A stretch of DNA of 64,000 nt from Sulfurimonas sp. (lineage in GTDB: Bacteria; Campylobacterota; Campylobacteria; Campylobacterales; Sulfurimonadaceae). The translations under genes were made by a program, and so were the position numbers. Under the pieces are notes generated by a model. The model saw nothing but the letters and a program-made list of their open reading frames with translations, did not search any database and was not told the DNA's origin. This document shows positions 6,532-19,329 of the stretch, piece by piece. The DNA lies in assembly GCF_026196735.1 (NCBI RefSeq), contig NZ_JAPHUF010000016.1:1-64000 (forward strand), given 5' to 3'. The first letter of the stretch is position 1. The number at the start of each line of letters is the position of its first letter.

Positions 6532-7041
6532 ATGCAAACTACTACTTTTAACGGGAGTCCTGTCAAATTATCAGGAAATGAAATCAATGTAGGAGACAAA
6601 GCACCAGTTGTGACTGCTGTAGCAACTGACTTAAGTGATGTTGAGATTGGCGGAGCTAAAGATAATATTCAACTAATCATTACTGTCCCATCTTTAGATA
6701 CTGATACATGTGCAGCTGAAACTAGAAGATTTAATCAAGATGTAAATAACTTGGATATATGTGAAACTACTGTTATTTCTATGGATTTACCTTTTGCTTC
6801 TGAGCGTTTTTGTACAACTTCAGGGATTGAAAACCTTACTGTAGCATCTGATTATATTGACAAAGCAGTTAGTAAAGCGTATGGTGTATTAATGGCTGAC
6901 AACAAACTTGTAGGCTTAAGTGCAAGAGCGGTTTTTGTAGTGGATAGAAGTGGAGAAGTTGTTTATAAAGAGATCGTACCGGAAGTAACGGCAGAGCCAA
7001 ACTATGAAGCTGCGTTAGATGCTATAAAAGAAGCTAGATAA
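6532..7041 (+). CDS. tpx: thiol peroxidase Tpx
   Basis: An atypical 2-Cys peroxiredoxin that reduces peroxides using thioredoxin. The peroxidatic Cys is in SLDTDTCAAETRRF and the resolving Cys in SERFCTTSG, at about residues 60 and 94 from this start, matching the E. coli Tpx spacing. The AAGGA ribosome site at 6521-6525 lies directly against an ATG at 6526 but six bases before the ATG at 6532, so I place the start at 6532, giving MQTTTFNG. The gene stands alone and is followed by a clear intrinsic terminator. Confidence 0.94.
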   Translation: MQTTTFNGSPVKLSGNEINVGDKAPVVTAVATDLSDVEIGGAKDNIQLIITVPSLDTDTCAAETRRFNQDVNNLDICETTVISMDLPFASERFCTTSGIENLTVASDYIDKAVSKAYGVLMADNKLVGLSARAVFVVDRSGEVVYKEIVPEVTAEPNYEAALDAIKEAR

Positions 7042-9332: not shown

Positions 9333-9407
9333 TCCGGATTAGCTCAGCGGTAGAGTAGGTGACTGTTAATCACTTGGTCACTGGTTCGAATCCAGTATCC
9401 GGAGCCA
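9333..9407 (+). tRNA. tRNA-Asn (GTT anticodon), island insertion site
   Basis: A 75-nt cloverleaf with acceptor TCCGGAT/ATCCGGA, anticodon loop CTGTTAA, TTCGAAT in the T loop and encoded CCA. It lies 21 bp after tRNA-Met. An integrase remnant begins 30 bp beyond its 3' end, so this tRNA is the likely attachment site of the island that follows. No second copy of its 3' end was found by eye before 14.2 kb. Confidence 0.94.
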
Positions 9408-9437: not shown

Positions 9438-9896
9438 TCAACCAACTTTTTCAATAATCGGTGTCGTTTCGGTGTCTTTTAGTGCCACTGTTTTTTCTAA
9501 GAATGTAGCTCTTTTCTTATCATCACGCTTTATATACTTTGCATATCTGCTAAGTGTCATTGTAGAATCTTTATGACCTAACATATTTGATATCCACAGA
9601 ATATCCTCACCGTTCTCCAACATTACCGTAGCAAATGTATGTCTTGTATGATAAATAGGTCGATAATCAAGTTTACACTTTATAAGTGTCTTTTTCCATT
9701 GATTATCTCGTATCCTTTTTATATCATATAGAGGTTCATGATTCTCATTTAAAAACACATAAGAGTTTTGTGAACCAGTTAGTTGATATTGATTTTTCAA
9801 GTAAGGCAATAGTGAATCTAAAATCTCAATCTCTCTATAACTAGATTCAGTTTTTAATTTTCCATCCTTACCTGATCTGACTACACTTTTTATCAC
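9438..9896 (-). pseudogene. tyrosine recombinase (phage-type integrase), C-terminal fragment
   Basis: A 152-residue fragment of the catalytic domain: HTRHTF (His83, Arg85), GH (His108) and a candidate nucleophile Tyr118 in SRYAKY are visible. The N-terminal DNA-binding domains and the first catalytic Arg box are missing. The reading frame starts at a GTG with an in-frame TAA immediately upstream. A complete integrase would be 350-420 residues, so this one cannot recombine DNA as it stands. It faces tRNA-Asn, the usual position of the gene that inserted the island. Confidence 0.88.
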
Positions 9897-10122: not shown

Positions 10123-11403
10123 ATGAATTTAAATAGCATCAAACAAAATACCCTTGTATTAATCATTTACTCATTCTTGTTTGTTAACGGGATAATATAT
10201 ATACTGGATAAACAATTAGGGTATTTTGACATGCTTCACTCAGCTATGCTTAGAAATATTTCTAGTACATATGATGAGAGCACTCCTGTTTATTCCAATC
10301 ATTCTGATTCTGTTGTAATATTAATTAGTAATAAAACGTTTGAAAAAGAATTTAATTCCAAAACTCCATTAAACAAAGATAAGCTTGGTATTTTAGTTCA
10401 AAATATTTTGGATAAAAATCCAAAAAGTCTTATTTTTGACCTTGATATATCACCTGATTATAATTTTGAAAATAAAAAGCAGATACAAACAAATTTATAT
10501 AATATATTGATGAATAATTCCGATAATGTAAAGATATTTTTGCCTTTTGCCTTCATAGCAGACACACAAGAAAATAAAACTCTAAAACTTACTTGGGCAA
10601 AACAAATGTGTGAAAATAATATTAAGTTTGCATTTCCATTCATAACTGATGAAATAGGATCAGTGTTACAATATTATCAAGACCCTAATCATATTTCATT
10701 GTTTACACATAGTTTACAAGAAGGTAGTTCTAACTTAGGAGTATGTAATAAAATTACTGGAACTGATATAAAAGATTTAAAAGACATCAATCAATACTAT
10801 TTTGAGGAACATCATACATTTAAACAACTTCCTGTAAATTACCAAACTATTAACAAAAATACGATTATGATTGATAATTTTAAAGATTTAGATAAATATA
10901 ATCTTACAAACAAGGTTGTATTTTTAGGTGGTAGTTATGGGTTTGGTGATAAATATATAACTCCATACGGAGAAAAATATGGTGTTGAAATACTTAATGC
11001 TATATATTATTCTTTAAAACATAAAATTGACGAAGCAGACGCATTAACGACACTAATAATTACTGATGTAATTATTGGTTTACTATTCGGAGTAATTATC
11101 AGTTATCTAATTAAACAAAGAAAGAAAATTTCTACACAAAGCAAGTTAGCCCTAAATAACTTTAGTTTGATCACTGTAGCTGCTGTCTTTTTATTTATTT
11201 CTTTAATAGTTTCATCTTACATATTTCACAACCTATATCTTTGGCTTAACCCTGTTCCTTTAATTATTGGAATGTTTATTGACTCAATAACTGGGTTAGG
11301 AGAAGAAGAAGTTGAAGATAAGGGAAACTATATAAACCTAGTATATGTAATAAAAGCATCTTTAGTTTTTATTGGTGGATATAGCTTTATTGATAGTATT
11401 TAA
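10123..11403 (+). CDS. stand-alone CHASE2-domain membrane protein
   Basis: 426 residues: one N-terminal membrane helix (about 9-28), an extracytoplasmic domain of about 270 residues, then four hydrophobic helices (about 310-332, 347-369, 374-392, 404-423). The outer domain has CHASE2 hallmarks: an early FDM segment, SLIFDLDIS, and the C-terminal block VVFLGGSYGFGDKYITPYG with GVEILNAI (about 264-293). CHASE2 normally sits in front of a kinase, cyclase or GGDEF domain. Here nothing follows the last helix, so signalling must pass through partners. It is the first gene of a three-gene operon. The ribosome site is weak (AAGG about 14 bases from the ATG). The ligand is unknown. Confidence 0.75.
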   Translation: MNLNSIKQNTLVLIIYSFLFVNGIIYILDKQLGYFDMLHSAMLRNISSTYDESTPVYSNHSDSVVILISNKTFEKEFNSKTPLNKDKLGILVQNILDKNPKSLIFDLDISPDYNFENKKQIQTNLYNILMNNSDNVKIFLPFAFIADTQENKTLKLTWAKQMCENNIKFAFPFITDEIGSVLQYYQDPNHISLFTHSLQEGSSNLGVCNKITGTDIKDLKDINQYYFEEHHTFKQLPVNYQTINKNTIMIDNFKDLDKYNLTNKVVFLGGSYGFGDKYITPYGEKYGVEILNAIYYSLKHKIDEADALTTLIITDVIIGLLFGVIISYLIKQRKKISTQSKLALNNFSLITVAAVFLFISLIVSSYIFHNLYLWLNPVPLIIGMFIDSITGLGEEEVEDKGNYINLVYVIKASLVFIGGYSFIDSI

Positions 11404-11424
11404 ATATAAAATGGAGGTAGTCAA

Positions 11425-12144
11425 ATGATAAAGTATAACTTTGTATTTTTTCTGTTTACAAGTAGCTTATTAGCAAACATACTGTTTATGGGTAGCAAGC
11501 AAGATACATTTAAATGTGATTCTGAAATTGGTCATCCGATAAGTCTTATGGATTGTAAAAATATTGAAGCAGTAACAGATATAAGTATCTGTTACTTTCT
11601 AAACGCATCATTAGGATGCAAAAAACTATTCAAAGGGGATTCTTATTCAGCTGATAAGATAGATACAAATAGTTTAAGTTTTAAACGACTTTTATCTTTT
11701 AATACAAATAAAAAAACTTCATTTGGAATAAAAAGATTTGGTAACGAAGCAAAAGATATTGGAATCCCAAATGGAACAATTATAAAACCAAAAAACAATT
11801 TGCATATAAAGTTAGATAAAGAGTATAACATTGAATTAGTACTGATGAATAGCTATAAAAAGATTCTTTTGCAAAAGAACCATACAAGTGATGTAGTTGA
11901 CATACCTGGAAACTTATTAGAATACTCAAAAAAATATTATTGGCAAGTTAAGCTTGACACAATCACCTATGAAGGTAGTTTCGATACATTAGATCAAGAC
12001 AGTTATAAAGAGATGAATAACGAAATTACTAATTTAGTTAAAAGTCTTAATGATGAAAAGTCAATAAGATATATAAAAAGTGTTATTTATGATCAATATG
12101 GTTTGACATATGATCGGAACATAATTTTAAAAGGAGCATTCTGA
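11425..12144 (+). CDS. secreted protein with a beta-sandwich-like C-terminal half, unknown function
   Basis: 239 residues with a signal peptide (about 1-17, FFLFTSSLLA). The mature N-terminus has several Cys (CDSEIGHP, MDCKN, CYFLN, CKKLF) that may form disulfides in the periplasm. Residues about 115-195 have alternating hydrophobic strands ending in KYYWQVKL, a pattern like the Ig/fibronectin-type modules found next to FecR and CHASE2 proteins; that likeness is inference. A strong GGAGG ribosome site lies before the ATG. It is 21 bp after the CHASE2 gene and 1 bp before the M48 gene, so it should be made with both and could bridge the sensor and the protease. Confidence 0.65.
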   Translation: MIKYNFVFFLFTSSLLANILFMGSKQDTFKCDSEIGHPISLMDCKNIEAVTDISICYFLNASLGCKKLFKGDSYSADKIDTNSLSFKRLLSFNTNKKTSFGIKRFGNEAKDIGIPNGTIIKPKNNLHIKLDKEYNIELVLMNSYKKILLQKNHTSDVVDIPGNLLEYSKKYYWQVKLDTITYEGSFDTLDQDSYKEMNNEITNLVKSLNDEKSIRYIKSVIYDQYGLTYDRNIILKGAF

Positions 12145-12145
12145 G

Positions 12146-13168
12146 ATGAAAAAAATATTCTTAAGTAGTTTAATTATAAGTAGTTTATTCGCATTTGATT
12201 TAGGTATTGGTAGTTTAATTAGTGTAGTTAAAAGTGGTGCATCGGCTTTAGGTATGGATGGAGAAACAAGTACAATCAATGTAGATAGAGAGTGTAATCA
12301 AGCATTCGAAAGCTATGATTTAAACACTGAAGCACTATTGAAAACTACATCTATGTATGGTATATCAAAATCAGACAATATATTAGATTTTTTAAATACT
12401 AATAAATCTAGCGGTAAAGATATAACAAGCGATGATTTTAAAGAGCTTTCAAAAATAATGGCTAAAAACTTTTTATGGATTCCATTAGAAGTTGAAAAAA
12501 TCTATGGTGAAAAGCAATATAAACATAGAATTGAGTCTGGTGATGTTATTTTGAAAACAACAAGAAATAAAAAATACAAAAAAATGTATGCGAAGATAGA
12601 TAAGTATCTCAGAAAATATAATTCCTATCTAGAAAAAAATGATTTAAAGTATCCATATGATATAAAAATATATATATTATCAACACAAAAAAAAGCTGAA
12701 TCATTACCTTACGGATATGTTTTTATTAGTGAAGATTATATTGAAAATGGAATGTATGAAACAATACTTTCACATGAGTTGGCACATGTATCAAAAAGGC
12801 ACGCAACAAAAGAAATACAATATCAAATTGTTATGTCATATGACAATATTACAGATATTATGAAATTAATTAAAGAAATGCAAGATGAAAATGTTGCCAC
12901 CAAAGTTGCAACTGGATTTATGACAAAAGATATCATTAAAGCAAGTTATGAGCTTTATCCACAAGAACAAGAGATAGAGGCAGATGCATGTGGATTAAAA
13001 ACTATCAACGCATTTATACCTGATAGGAAAGAGGATCATGTTAAAAATTTTATAGCAAATGTAAATAATAGTAAATACGATGATAAAGAAAAAGAAGGTG
13101 GATTTCAAGATCATCCTAGCAAACAAGTAAGAATATCTAATATAAAAAATGTAGCACAATTATTTTGA
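12146..13168 (+). CDS. secreted M48-family zinc metalloprotease
   Basis: 340 residues with a signal peptide (about 1-16). The zinc site is HELAH (residues 210-214) with the third ligand in EIEADACGL (about 277), and the usual C-terminal DHPSKQVRI segment follows. This is the layout of periplasmic M48 proteases such as BepA/LoiP, which act in outer-membrane quality control. There is no TPR extension and no clear lipobox. About 120 residues lie between the signal peptide and the start of the catalytic region, with no recognised domain. AAGGAG at 12131-12136 gives a good start. Last gene of the CHASE2 operon. Confidence 0.88.
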   Translation: MKKIFLSSLIISSLFAFDLGIGSLISVVKSGASALGMDGETSTINVDRECNQAFESYDLNTEALLKTTSMYGISKSDNILDFLNTNKSSGKDITSDDFKELSKIMAKNFLWIPLEVEKIYGEKQYKHRIESGDVILKTTRNKKYKKMYAKIDKYLRKYNSYLEKNDLKYPYDIKIYILSTQKKAESLPYGYVFISEDYIENGMYETILSHELAHVSKRHATKEIQYQIVMSYDNITDIMKLIKEMQDENVATKVATGFMTKDIIKASYELYPQEQEIEADACGLKTINAFIPDRKEDHVKNFIANVNNSKYDDKEKEGGFQDHPSKQVRISNIKNVAQLF

Positions 13169-13273: not shown

Positions 13274-13999
13274 TCACTTAGTATATTTTTCCATAATTTC
13301 ACTGAAAAATATACTAAGTTGAGGGTAAATCTCACTCCAATTTCTAATTTTAGCACTTTTCCATTTTTCCTGAACCTCCTGAGTTGCCAGATATAATAAT
13401 TTAAAAGCTGAATCTACAGTTGGAAATGAGCCTTTGGATTTGGTTTTTCTTTTGATATTTGAGTTAAGAGACTCAATCGGATTTGTTGTATAAATAAGCT
13501 TTTTTATAGCTTCTGGGTATTTGAAAAATGTGGAAAGTTCATTCCAGTGAGACTGCCAGGACAGAGTGATGTGAGGATATTTTTTACCCCATACATCATT
13601 AAACTCTGTAAGCGCAAGTTGTCCATCTTCTTCTGTTGCTGCAGTGTAGATAGTCTTTAAATCTTTTGCAACCGCTTTTCTGTCTTTCCAAGAGACATAT
13701 CTGAGAGAGCTTCTTATCTGATGAACGATGCATCTTTGTATTTCAGCTTTTGGATACACGGCTTGTATGGCTTGATTAAACCCATTGAGACCATCTATAG
13801 CAAATATCAGGACATCTTCAACACCTCTATTTTTGAGTTCATTTAAAAGTGTCAGCCAATACTTTGAAGTTTCATTCTCTCCAATCCAAATACCGATAAT
13901 CTCTTTTTGGCCATCAAGAGTGATTCCAAGCATTATATATGCTGAAATATTTTTTACAACTCTGTCTATTCTTATTTTTAATAGGAGCCATACACTCAC
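13274..13999 (-). pseudogene. IS256-family transposase, 5'-truncated
   Basis: 241 residues corresponding to the C-terminal 60% of an IS256/Mutator-type transposase (normally about 400). Recognisable blocks are GIWIGENETSKYWL, the second catalytic Asp in FAIDGLNGF (Asp69), CIVHQIR and the catalytic Glu in TTNPIESLNS (Glu176). The first catalytic Asp block is gone: family similarity begins only at KIRIDRVVKN and the preceding residues look unrelated. The element must be inactive. It marks the right part of the island. Confidence 0.9.
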
Positions 14000-14147: not shown

Positions 14148-15179
14148 CTATTTAATATACAACTTTTTTAATATACAAATCATACTCTCAACAGCTTTTA
14201 TGGATGTTGTTTCATGTACAGTGTGGTACCCAATAGTAGGAAGCTGTAGAGTTGCTCCTTGGATTTCACCCTTTGTAGCATGAATAAGTCGTCCAAGTTC
14301 AGTAGTTCCAAGTGAACCTTTTGTTCCATTTTGCTTCATCTTATTTTTTAAGTAAGCATCTTTAAAATGATATTTTATATTCTCTTTTATAGCTATATTT
14401 TTAATTTCATTTTTTAAAGGTGACCTAAAAACAGCATTTGCATCGCGATTTCTTAAAATAATATCAAGATTATTGATATCTTCTAAAGTGTCGTACGGGC
14501 TTGTGTCAAGAACAAGAAGTTCTTTTGTGTTTATATTAAATCTTCTAAACCATTCAAGTAAAAATCTCCAACTTTTTCCGGCCTCTTCTGAAGCTGTAAA
14601 AAAGGCAGTGCCTTGATATCCAATACTATACATGTAAATAATGATTGCAACAGATATTACATTGTCAAGTTGAGCTGATATCAACTCATCTTTTACTTCA
14701 AGTTTATCCATAAATGCTATCGGAGTTCCGGGAAACAGATAGTCAAAGCCATCTACTTTGAAAATAATATTATTTCTTCTTTGACAAAGAAAAGCTTCTT
14801 TTATTGTTCCGATACCTAGATATGAACCTGACCATGGTTCATATGCCTGAACTTTTTCATCTATAAATCTTGTTGTAAAATTATGCAGCAGTTGTTCTGA
14901 GTTTGAATCCCCAGTCAAATCAGCTTTATTTTTTGCAATAAATGCCGAATATTGAAACTCATTGTGTCCTGTACATGTAAGTCCATGTCTATCTGAGTGT
15001 GCCGAAATATATCCGCTCTCAGGACTGCTTCCTTTTGCCACAAGAACACCATCATAGTATTCAACTTTTATACCAAGTTCTTCTAAGTCTCTTTTTACAA
15101 ACATGAAAAATGGGTGTTCAGCACCGACAACACTTGGTATACGAATTAGTTGTTTTAATATATCGTAAAATAGTTCCAT
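14148..15179 (-). CDS. M42/M28-like zinc peptidase
   Basis: 343 residues. Metal-site residues in order are His61 and Asp63 (SAHSDRHGL), bridging Asp172 (AQLDNVIS), the Glu198-Glu199 pair (TASEEAGK), Asp225 (LDTSPYD) and His319/His322 (GYHTVHET). This is the co-catalytic two-zinc pattern of M42/M20/M28 aminopeptidases. It is cytoplasmic (no signal). It is the last gene of a packed operon, 2 bp after the deacylase-like gene, behind a RimK ligase and a RimB protein. The context suggests it cleaves amino acids or short peptides that the ligase adds or makes; this is inference. Confidence 0.82.
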   Translation of the reverse strand: MELFYDILKQLIRIPSVVGAEHPFFMFVKRDLEELGIKVEYYDGVLVAKGSSPESGYISAHSDRHGLTCTGHNEFQYSAFIAKNKADLTGDSNSEQLLHNFTTRFIDEKVQAYEPWSGSYLGIGTIKEAFLCQRRNNIIFKVDGFDYLFPGTPIAFMDKLEVKDELISAQLDNVISVAIIIYMYSIGYQGTAFFTASEEAGKSWRFLLEWFRRFNINTKELLVLDTSPYDTLEDINNLDIILRNRDANAVFRSPLKNEIKNIAIKENIKYHFKDAYLKNKMKQNGTKGSLGTTELGRLIHATKGEIQGATLQLPTIGYHTVHETTSIKAVESMICILKKLYIK

Positions 15180-15181
15180 AG

Positions 15182-16231
15182 TTACTCTATTATATCTTCA
15201 TCATTGAGTTCATGAAATTCACTTGACTCATTAATATCTTCATTAAAATACTCCATTTTATCTTCTGCCATCTCAAGATTTGTAAATTTAGCAATATGAA
15301 AAATAGCATCACCTGCTTGGACTAAAGGGATTTCTGATTTCCCTATGATAACTCCGTCAAATGGTGATTTGATTTCAAAACTTTCATCGTCTAAAGGTTC
15401 ATCTATAAATGCAATAGTTTCATCTTTTGATACTGTGTCGCCAAGTGCTTTTATGGTTCTAAGCATTCCGCTTTCACTTGCGCGTGTCCATTGACTTGTT
15501 TTTGTAATTATTGGGGTTTTTCTTGGTTTTTTTCTTGCTACTTTAGGGAGCATATCGTTTTCTCTAAGCACATTAACTATTCCATGAACTCCAACCCTGA
15601 TGCAAGCTTCATCAAATCTCAAGGCTTCACCGGCTTCATATAAAAGAATCGGCACCCCTTTTTCTTGCGCTACTGCTCTTAGAGAACCATCCCTGAGTTC
15701 AGAGTGCAAAATCACAGGTGCCTGAAAAGCTTTTGCCAAATTAAATGTATGCTCATTATCTATATTTGTTCTAACTTGTGGAAGGTTAGATTTGTGTATA
15801 GACGCTGTATGCAAATCTATTCCCAAATCACACTTTCTTACAATCTCATCAAAAAAAGTTTTTGCGACTCTACTAGCGAGTGAACCCTTTAAGCTTCCGG
15901 GAAAACTTCTATTTAAGTCTCTTCTATCTGGTAAATATCTAGAAAGTGTCATAATTCCATACACATTTACTATTGGAACTAAAACCAAAGTACCCTTTAG
16001 TTTTTTTAAAATATGTAACTTTCGTAAGCGTCTTATTATCTCTATACCGTTTAATTCATCGCCATGGATTGCTGCGCTCACAAAAACAATTGGCCCATCT
16101 TTTTTACCACGAATTACTCTAACTGGCAGTTGTGTTGGAGTATTATATAACTTAGGCAAATCAATATTTATGGTAACATTAACCCCTTTTGGTATTTCAA
16201 CGCCGCCTAATGTAAATACTTGATTAAGCAT
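15182..16231 (-). CDS. succinylglutamate desuccinylase / aspartoacylase family protein
   Basis: 349 residues. It has a zinc carboxypeptidase-like (M14) fold: HGDELNG (His56, Glu59), the substrate-binding DRRDLNRSFPG (103-112), the third ligand His141 in GIDLHTAS and the likely catalytic Glu199 in LLYEAGEA. A C-terminal barrel-sandwich domain follows (about 245-325). Family members remove acyl or amino-acyl groups from small substrates. It starts one base after the stop of the RimK-like gene. Genes of this family are known neighbours of rimK/rimB, but the substrate in that setting is not established. An acidic tail (LNDEDIIE) ends the protein. Confidence 0.88.
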   Translation of the reverse strand: MLNQVFTLGGVEIPKGVNVTINIDLPKLYNTPTQLPVRVIRGKKDGPIVFVSAAIHGDELNGIEIIRRLRKLHILKKLKGTLVLVPIVNVYGIMTLSRYLPDRRDLNRSFPGSLKGSLASRVAKTFFDEIVRKCDLGIDLHTASIHKSNLPQVRTNIDNEHTFNLAKAFQAPVILHSELRDGSLRAVAQEKGVPILLYEAGEALRFDEACIRVGVHGIVNVLRENDMLPKVARKKPRKTPIITKTSQWTRASESGMLRTIKALGDTVSKDETIAFIDEPLDDESFEIKSPFDGVIIGKSEIPLVQAGDAIFHIAKFTNLEMAEDKMEYFNEDINESSEFHELNDEDIIE

Positions 16232-17164
16232 TTAAGCTCCTATACTATCTCTTTTAATTCTTTTCTTTTTAGCAGTCGTATCAGATTTTGGAGTAACATT
16301 TTTTGCTATATAATCCATGATTTTTCCAGCAATGTCAATATTTGTAGACTTTTCAATTCCCTCTAATCCTGGAGATGAGTTTACTTCCATTACAAGCGGT
16401 CCTCGAGCAGATGGAATCATATCAACGCCACAGACACCAAGACCCATAGCTTTTGCAGCAGCAAGCGCAGTCGATTTTTCTTTTCTAGTTAATTTATGAA
16501 TAGTGGCCTTTCCGCCTTGATGCAAGTTAGACCTAAATTCACCGTCTGCACCTTGGCGCTTCATAGCTCCAACAACCTCTCCACCAACAATAAAGACTCT
16601 TATGTCAGCTCCACCGGCTTCTTCTACAAACTCTTGAACAAGTAAGCTCACATCCATTCCATAAAACGCATCTAGAACTGATTTTGCAGCTTTTGCAGTA
16701 TCTACAAGTACTACGCCGACACCCTGAGTACCTTCAAGAATTTTCAAAACTAATGGTGCACCACCGCTTAATGCAATAATATCTTTTGCACTTGATTTAT
16801 TTGAAGCAAAAACAGTTTTTGGCATATCTACACCATATTTAGAAAGTATTTGCAAGCTTCTTAGCTTATCTCTGCTTCTTGCTATTGCAAGATTACCTGA
16901 AGTCGAGAAAACATCCATCATTTCAAAGTGTCTAACCATAGCAGTTCCATAAAATGTTCTGCTCGCTCCGATTCTAGGAATGATAGCGTCAGGAATTGGC
17001 AATTGTTCGCCCAGATAGTTGATTCTCAATTGCCCTTTCATAATCTCAATAGAACATTTTAAATAGTCAATTACTCTAACTTCCCAACCTTTTTGCTCTG
17101 CCGCTTCAAGCAATCTTTTTGTTGAATACAATTCTTTGTTTCTAGATAATATATACACTCTCAT
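16232..17164 (-). CDS. rimK: RimK-family ATP-grasp ligase
   Basis: 310 residues with the RimK pre-ATP-grasp domain (1-100, including [14 protein letters not shown]) and the ATP-grasp core: [31 protein letters not shown] and the Mg-binding end [21 protein letters not shown]. RimK adds glutamate residues to the C-terminus of ribosomal protein S6 in E. coli, and relatives ligate amino acids to small acceptors. The tail from about 290 is Lys/Arg-rich. It is 11 bp after the RimB-like gene and abuts the deacylase-like gene. The acceptor here is not known, so the symbol denotes family rather than proven function. Confidence 0.9.
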
Positions 17165-17175
17165 TATTTTTCCTT

Positions 17176-17601
17176 TTATTTATTCTCTTTGGATAGATAC
17201 TCTTGTGATACATCAACTAAAAATTTTCCACTTAAAAATCTTCTTCCTATAAGCATCGGGTATTTCATATCTGCTCTATTTGTTAAAGAGATAACTGTTT
17301 TATATTTTTTCCCAAAAAATTTAACACTGACTTTTATAGAAGGTCTCTCTTGTATTTCGCCATTTGAACTTTTTACTTTTTTAACTTTATAGAGCGGCAC
17401 AACCATTTTTTTACCGTGATATGCCAAATGAACTTCATCTAGCAGGTGAAAATGCACATTATTTTCATCATCTATATATATATGGTCGCAATGCAAAGCG
17501 TTTGAATCAGCACCAGTGTCTACTTTTGCATCAAGATCATATAACTCTAAATCTAAAATTGATATAAGCTCTTTCTTACCAATTACTTTTTTTTCCTTCA
17601 T
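17176..17601 (-). CDS. rimB: RimB-like retropepsin-fold protein (ATP-dependent zinc protease family)
   Basis: 141 residues. The core motif [13 protein letters not shown] places an aspartic-protease-like Asp-Thr-Gly at 28-30. [17 protein letters not shown] and [20 protein letters not shown] complete the family pattern. The family is named ATP-dependent zinc protease but has a retropepsin-like fold and genetically accompanies RimK (rimABK in Pseudomonas). No signal peptide, so cytoplasmic. First gene of the reverse operon, with a -10 box at 17625-17630. A second, exported copy lies at 18862. Confidence 0.85.
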
Positions 17602-18861: not shown

Positions 18862-19329
18862 ATGAAATATCTAATATTACTACTTTTGGTTTTTAATCTA
18901 TATGCTAAAGACACATTGGGAAGAATTGATAAATTTGATTTACCTGAGCTTAATATATACAATATTAGAGCAAAAATAGATACCGGCGCAAAGACATCAT
19001 CACTTCATTGTAGCAATATAATACCAGTAGGTGATAATCTGGTAAAGTTTATAGTTTTAGATGGTAAAAACAATCAATTGACCAAAGGTTATATCACTAA
19101 GCCTATCTCAAGAGTAGCAAATGTAAAAAGTTCAAATGGAGAAATTGAACAGAGATACTTTGTACATACAAAAATAGTGATTTATAATAAAACATATGAT
19201 ATTGAGCTGTCTTTAACCTTTAGAGACAGTATGAGATACCCACTGCTAATCGGACGAGAACTTCTAAATCAAGGCTTTATAGTAGATACAACTCAGAAAA
19301 ACCTCTCATTTAAGGCAAAAGATAATTAA
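18862..19329 (+). CDS. exported RimB-like retropepsin-fold protein
   Basis: 155 residues with a signal peptide (about 1-15, LILLLLVFNLYA). The core KIDTGAKTSSLHC places Asp-Thr-Gly at about 40-42. [14 protein letters not shown] and YPLLIGRELLNQGFIVDT match the cytoplasmic paralogue at 17176-17601. It therefore brings the same fold to the periplasm. In other proteobacteria exported members of this family accompany RimK-like ligases and transglutaminase-like proteins. It converges with the MscS gene, the stop codons only 2 bp apart. Confidence 0.85.
   Translation: MKYLILLLLVFNLYAKDTLGRIDKFDLPELNIYNIRAKIDTGAKTSSLHCSNIIPVGDNLVKFIVLDGKNNQLTKGYITKPISRVANVKSSNGEIEQRYFVHTKIVIYNKTYDIELSLTFRDSMRYPLLIGRELLNQGFIVDTTQKNLSFKAKDN

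Follow-up and report, generated by a model that had tools for sequence, protein, structure and literature searches.

The window analyzed here, a 64,000-nucleotide stretch of a Sulfurimonas sp. contig (NZ_JAPHUF010000016.1), contains a three-gene cassette encoding a CHASE2 protein, an exported protein of an orphan family (the middle protein), and an exported M48 zinc protease, which is conserved as one unit in five genomes and is carried as mobile island cargo at tRNA or tmRNA sites. The explanation that we favor, and to which we give about an even chance, is a mobile, co-inherited envelope module in which a CHASE2 receptor and an exported adaptor control a plug-gated periplasmic M48 protease. 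The receptor and protease families, CHASE2 and M48, are already known. No description of the CHASE2-M48 combination, of the receptor architecture with a fifth transmembrane segment, or of the middle-protein family was found in the libraries and open literature searched.

In the window, the three open reading frames (ORFs) are all intact and lie on the forward strand, encoding the CHASE2 protein (426 amino acids [aa]; positions 10123 to 11403), the middle protein (239 aa; 11425 to 12144), and the M48 protease (340 aa; 12146 to 13168). The intergenic gaps are 21 bp and then 1 bp, and the contiguous same-strand arrangement described in an earlier, sequence-only reading of this DNA proved exact to the base. 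The placement of the cassette in an island, also proposed there, agrees with its G+C content of 26.8%, compared with 33.3% in the flanks, and with its neighbors on both sides. To the left are a tRNA-Met gene, a tRNA-Asn gene (9333 to 9407, forward strand; predicted by ARAGORN), and, adjoining the end of the latter, a tyrosine integrase remnant (9438 to 9896, reverse strand). The tRNA-Asn gene is the probable integration site of the island, given the adjacency of a tRNA or tmRNA gene in three further copies. The remnant retains only the C-terminal catalytic part of the enzyme (PF00589 profile positions 62 to 167 of 172) and shares 39% identity with an integrase found at a tRNA-Arg gene in genome G256. 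To the right is the C-terminal part of a truncated IS256-family transposase (13274 to 13999, reverse strand; PF00872 profile positions 169 to 378 of 379; NF033543). Further along the window, the reverse strand carries a row of genes for an M42-like peptidase, an AstE/AspA-like protein, a RimK ATP-grasp protein, and a PF05618 Zn_protease (14148 to 17601), and a second PF05618 gene is located close by on the forward strand (18862 to 19329).

The order CHASE2-middle-M48 in one orientation is kept in all five copies found, which come from five genomes belonging to three genera, two families, and one order. Using the middle protein as the query against 298 genomes of the phylum, a second copy was found in Arcobacter sp. 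CECT 8985 (G273; contig NZ_PDKC01000024.1), with all three genes in the same order and with proteins 41 to 44% identical to those of the window. A profile of the middle protein retrieved a third copy from the same genus as the second (G542), and a three-row profile retrieved two more, a fourth (G628) from the same genus as the window and a divergent fifth (G702) from another genus of the window's family. The CHASE2 domain is above the curated cutoff in G542, G628, and G702 as well; both CHASE2 and M48 were confirmed by Pfam in these three copies and in the window, and the Arcobacter copy was placed by alignment. Pairwise identities among the copies range from 22% to 58%. The pattern of relatedness is the same for all three genes, with G702 always the outlier and the window and G628 always the nearest pair, which fits joint inheritance.

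The cassette is rare, occurring in about 1% of the sampled genomes of the phylum: 3 of 228 genomes of the window's family, 2 of 104 genomes of the second family (counting full-length matches only), and 2 of 397 genomes in the last draw from the phylum. The sequence-only reading had suggested that the three families be sought as neighbors in other genomes and had regarded rarity of the grouping outside this strain as evidence against it. All three families are neighbors in five genomes. The rarity is real, but every convincing middle gene was accompanied by both of the others; among the sampled genomes, which are broad inside one phylum only, there was no convincing case of a middle gene without CHASE2 and M48 neighbors. 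Weak matches to the middle gene (<20 bits), located in long unrelated or broken frames, were left out. In addition, no M48-type HExxH motif was present near the CHASE2 genes of 30 other loci of the phylum, and close relatives were found neither in plasmids nor in viral contigs. Two scans of a genome collection with narrow peptide patterns gave no match for the M48 protein and a single one, Arcobacter sp. CECT 8985, for the CHASE2 alignment; coverage beyond the phylum was shallow, and such narrow patterns do not establish absence there. The three genes are one conserved unit.

A tRNA or tmRNA gene adjoins four of the five copies, namely, tRNA-Asn in the window, tmRNA in G542, tRNA-Glu in G702, and, 64 bp from the stop codon of the M48 gene, tRNA-Arg in the Arcobacter copy. 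None of 51 control loci has such a gene (0 of 21 around the M42-type gene and 0 of 30 around ordinary CHASE2 genes), although these loci of 3 to 4 kb do not reach the length of a cassette plus flanks, are in part orthologous, and serve as a rough control only. The alignment of G542 with its sister genome G541 runs to position 6958, one base beyond the tmRNA gene (6562 to 6957), and restarts at 11172, directly after the cassette. At the tmRNA gene of G541, about 120 bp stand in place of the cassette, which represents an empty site. Likewise, the alignment of the Arcobacter copy with its sister genomes ends 2 to 3 bases beyond the tRNA-Arg gene. The M42-type protein beside the window cassette is 82% identical in G628, compared with 47 to 58% for the cassette proteins of the same two genomes, and the cassette of G628 sits between other genes; therefore, simple vertical descent of one insertion fits poorly. 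At the right edge of the window cassette, the M42-like gene has different neighbors in each relative. In the stretches searched, the tRNA-Asn end was not directly repeated in the window, and a second tRNA or tmRNA 3′ end was not found for three other copies, so the att sites are undefined. Within the genus Arcobacter, the tRNA-Arg gene is an integration hotspot that holds different cargo in three species (L098, 3242 to 7934, and L099, 3587 to 7632, both after tRNA-Arg). The cassette is thus island cargo that is mobile at tRNA and tmRNA sites, and the three genes do travel as one mobile cargo, as had been supposed from the window alone.

The mobility of the cassette bears on its purpose. In a periplasmic defense system against phages or competitors, envelope attack would be detected by the receptor and answered by the protease, which would destroy an envelope target or a protein of the invader; this reading is a special case of the favored explanation with a defined purpose. 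It is consistent with the patchy distribution of the cassette, with its mobility at tRNA and tmRNA sites, and with the strong divergence of the copies, which is often seen in conflict genes. In G256, the tRNA-Arg gene that borders the Arcobacter cassette is followed by genes for an integrase and a relaxase-like protein; in G207, the same site holds a restriction-modification-type group, namely, genes for a D12 methyltransferase and an HNH protein. However, tRNA islands carry cargo of all kinds, the immediate flanks of the window copy contain no defense gene, and the PADLOC protein models matched none of the CHASE2, middle, and M48 proteins. A dedicated defense role is considered unlikely, but it is by a small margin the most probable of the alternatives.

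The first gene product matches the CHASE2 family (PF05226; E value of 1.4e-8; 35 bits versus a cutoff of 26.3), which upholds the CHASE2-type outer domain assigned earlier. Hydropathy alone predicts a layout of one transmembrane segment (TM1), the outer CHASE2 domain, three transmembrane segments, a short charged loop, and a C-terminal segment, TM5. The three segments after the outer domain are as in ordinary CHASE2 receptors, and TM5 is predicted, from hydropathy and the alignment, to be the end of the protein in all five copies; it was not seen in the effector-less CHASE2 proteins of other loci (L049, L050, and L076). CHASE2 signaling receptors of the cyclase, kinase, GGDEF, and HD-GYP types carry a cytoplasmic output domain after their three C-terminal transmembrane segments, whereas none of the five cassette proteins has one, and no further Pfam domain exceeded its cutoff. 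Since a cytoplasmic output domain is lacking, any output should remain in the envelope, and the protein is most likely an inner-membrane receptor with a periplasmic sensory domain and an envelope-confined output. Signaling into the cytoplasm could nevertheless occur through the short loop that precedes TM5 or through a separate protein. In ordinary CHASE2 loci of the phylum (L018 to L047), the upstream gene often encodes a TPR/Slam-like, beta-barrel surface, or FecR-like protein, resembling the NsrA-CHASE2 arrangement discussed below. Locus L049 (4887 to 7594) has an effector-less CHASE2 gene, an opposite-strand nucleotidyltransferase/HEPN-like pair, and then a gene for an exported FecR-like/Ig-like protein.

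The third gene product matches Peptidase_M48 (PF01435; E value of 5e-9; 36.7 bits versus a cutoff of 20.3). Its key residues are the HELAH motif (210 to 214), by which it had already been recognized as a zinc protease, the third zinc ligand E276, and an HPx4R plug (323 to 329). H210, E211, H214, E276, H323, P324, and R329 are invariant in the five copies, so that, judging from the alignment, the catalytic and plug signature is intact in all of them. The HPx4R active-site plug is conserved in M48 proteases and must move for BepA to work (PMC7950410); because the plug gates BepA and is kept in the cassette protein, the enzyme is expected to remain latent in the absence of a trigger. Two cysteines are conserved in every one of the five copies, even the most divergent: Cys50, in the unique N-terminal part, and Cys282, which lies six residues C-terminal to the third zinc ligand. 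A disulfide clamp is plausible. The nearest solved relative is 3c37 of Geobacter, and the fold also matches BepA; the structural model is poor (mean pLDDT of 44.5) and was used only for this fold match to 3c37 and BepA.

M48 proteases with an HP plug are envelope quality-control enzymes of Escherichia coli (PMC7950410), and the cassette might accordingly supply accessory quality control, that is, a mobile extra BepA/LoiP-like protease with a dedicated sensor and adaptor that clears damaged outer-membrane or periplasmic proteins under a particular stress. In addition to the fold matches, weak similarity to the BepA (E value of 8.9e-6; 24.7 bits versus 570) and LoiP (E value of 2.5e-4; 20.6 bits versus 365) NCBIfam models points in this direction, with both scores far below the cutoffs. 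However, a rare and patchy cassette does not suggest general housekeeping, and the protease carries an N-terminal part of its own in place of the TPR domain of BepA, for which no Pfam match was obtained, and belongs to a strict cassette. This reading is also improbable and is placed just after the defense reading.

The middle protein had been described as secreted, cysteine containing, and beta-sandwich-like, and each of these traits reappeared in our predictions. A hydrophobic export segment at its N terminus is followed by a Cys-rich N-terminal part with C31, C44, C56, and C65; the four cysteines are shared by four of the five aligned copies, and the divergent G702 protein does not have the full set of N-terminal Cys pairs. 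In the partial model (mean pLDDT of 49, about 70 for residues 117 to 229), residues 117 to 229 form a putative Ig-like beta-sandwich and, C-terminal to it, two helices. The protein was not matched by any Pfam or NCBIfam family. The best fold match, MtxA (E value of 3.8e-3; Z score of 6.4; 122 residues), is within the chance range for such models, and MtxA did not match by sequence. A profile comparison revealed no homology with the exported proteins encoded beside other effector-less CHASE2 genes. Export signals or membrane helices, as noticed at the outset, are thus predicted for all three products; the M48 protein has an ordinary signal peptide, which is lipoprotein-like in G702.

The junction of the middle and M48 genes is a 1-bp gap or a 1- to 8-bp overlap in all five copies, and this translational coupling would suit a tightly stoichiometric pair, as expected if the middle protein inhibited or chaperoned the protease in a toxin-immunity-like system, with the CHASE2 protein as an anchor or an export or secretion receptor and the protease aimed at other cells. 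However, neither a secretion apparatus nor a delivery domain was seen, and the signals of the M48 proteins indicate that the protease stays in its own envelope, which makes such a system quite improbable. The remaining possibility, three unrelated genes joined by chance on decaying island DNA, draws on the broken integrase and transposase genes that flank the window copy, but it is ruled out for practical purposes by the same three-gene order in four other genomes, with all three genes open and the catalytic residues conserved in five copies at 22 to 58% identity.

The favored explanation, an envelope module controlling a latent protease, may operate as follows. A condition or ligand at the envelope would be sensed by the CHASE2 domain, either by itself or jointly with the middle protein, which probably binds the CHASE2 protein as an adaptor or ligand-binding partner. 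The receptor and middle protein may then displace the plug of the M48 protease or position the protease at its substrate, and the released enzyme would cleave envelope proteins, either the cell's own or those of something entering the cell. Given a receptor that lacks an intracellular output and two further products that are exported, an envelope-confined pathway is the simplest reading. Of the sensing-and-cleavage module put forward in the sequence-only reading, the conserved unit, the exported or membrane products, and the intact plug-type M48 signature have stood in all five copies, and we infer the coupling step, namely, that the parts bind one another and gate the protease, as well as its trigger and substrate.

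CHASE2 receptors are known for feeding signals to cytoplasmic enzymes, and M48 proteases are known for maintaining the envelope. If the coupling is true, the cassette would represent a way of signaling in the periplasm without recourse to the cytoplasm, and it would include a latent protease and an orphan adaptor family. A mobile conflict system lying wholly outside the cytoplasm, in which the CHASE2 protein and the exported adaptor trigger the latent M48 protease upon attack by a phage or competitor, is a more doubtful extension. Because the cassette recurs at tRNA and tmRNA sites, a role in conflict or stress can be tested directly.

Several known systems come close to the cassette in one respect or another. 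BepA, LoiP, and YcaL of E. coli and 3c37 of Geobacter share with the cassette protease the exported M48 fold, HExxH, the third ligand, and HPx4R, but the cassette enzyme differs in a distinct N-terminal part that contains an invariant Cys, in the lack of a TPR domain, and in being encoded within a sensor cassette. The CHASE2 cyclases CyaK, CyaD1, and CyaD2 of Sinorhizobium meliloti receive their signal via the outer-membrane protein NsrA (PMC13001267, PMC7529298), so there, too, an inner-membrane CHASE2 receptor needs a separate exported envelope protein for perception; that system has a cytoplasmic cyclase output and a beta-barrel partner, whereas the cassette lacks a cytoplasmic output, its putative partner protein is small and exported, and an exported protease is encoded as well. 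MtxA of Magnetospirillum (PDB 4z29) is exported and has an Ig-like domain followed by a helical, TPR-like domain; the partial model of the middle protein tentatively suggests a similar succession of an Ig-like part and helices. The mtxA gene is located directly upstream of a CHASE2-cyclase gene, and its deletion mutant had no visible phenotype (PMC4439547); the middle gene likewise adjoins a CHASE2 gene in all five copies, but its neighbors are an effector-less CHASE2 gene and an M48 gene, the latter not described for mtxA.

Groups in which an effector-less CHASE2 gene, a gene for a CHAT-TPR caspase-like protease, and a gene for an exported protein adjoin one another were found in three unrelated backgrounds, including plasmids of Deinococcus taeanensis (L076, 3390 to 8404) and Azospirillum sp. 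B510 (L075, 4429 to 9328) and a third locus (L050, 3905 to 10611). The last of these lies on contig 23 of G182, which is GC rich with long overlapping frames, unlike the phylum, and is probably assembly contamination. The exported protein, encoded after the CHASE2 gene, is 276 to 306 aa long. As in the cassette, an effector-less CHASE2 protein is combined with a protease, but the protease is caspase-like rather than M48, the CHASE2 proteins checked lack TM5, and the exported proteins have no sequence similarity to the middle protein. These groups are possibly a caspase-type counterpart of the cassette. Together with a metacaspase-CHASE2 fusion in Trichodesmium (PMC3501461) and the cassette itself, they indicate that the pairing of CHASE2 with a protease recurs.
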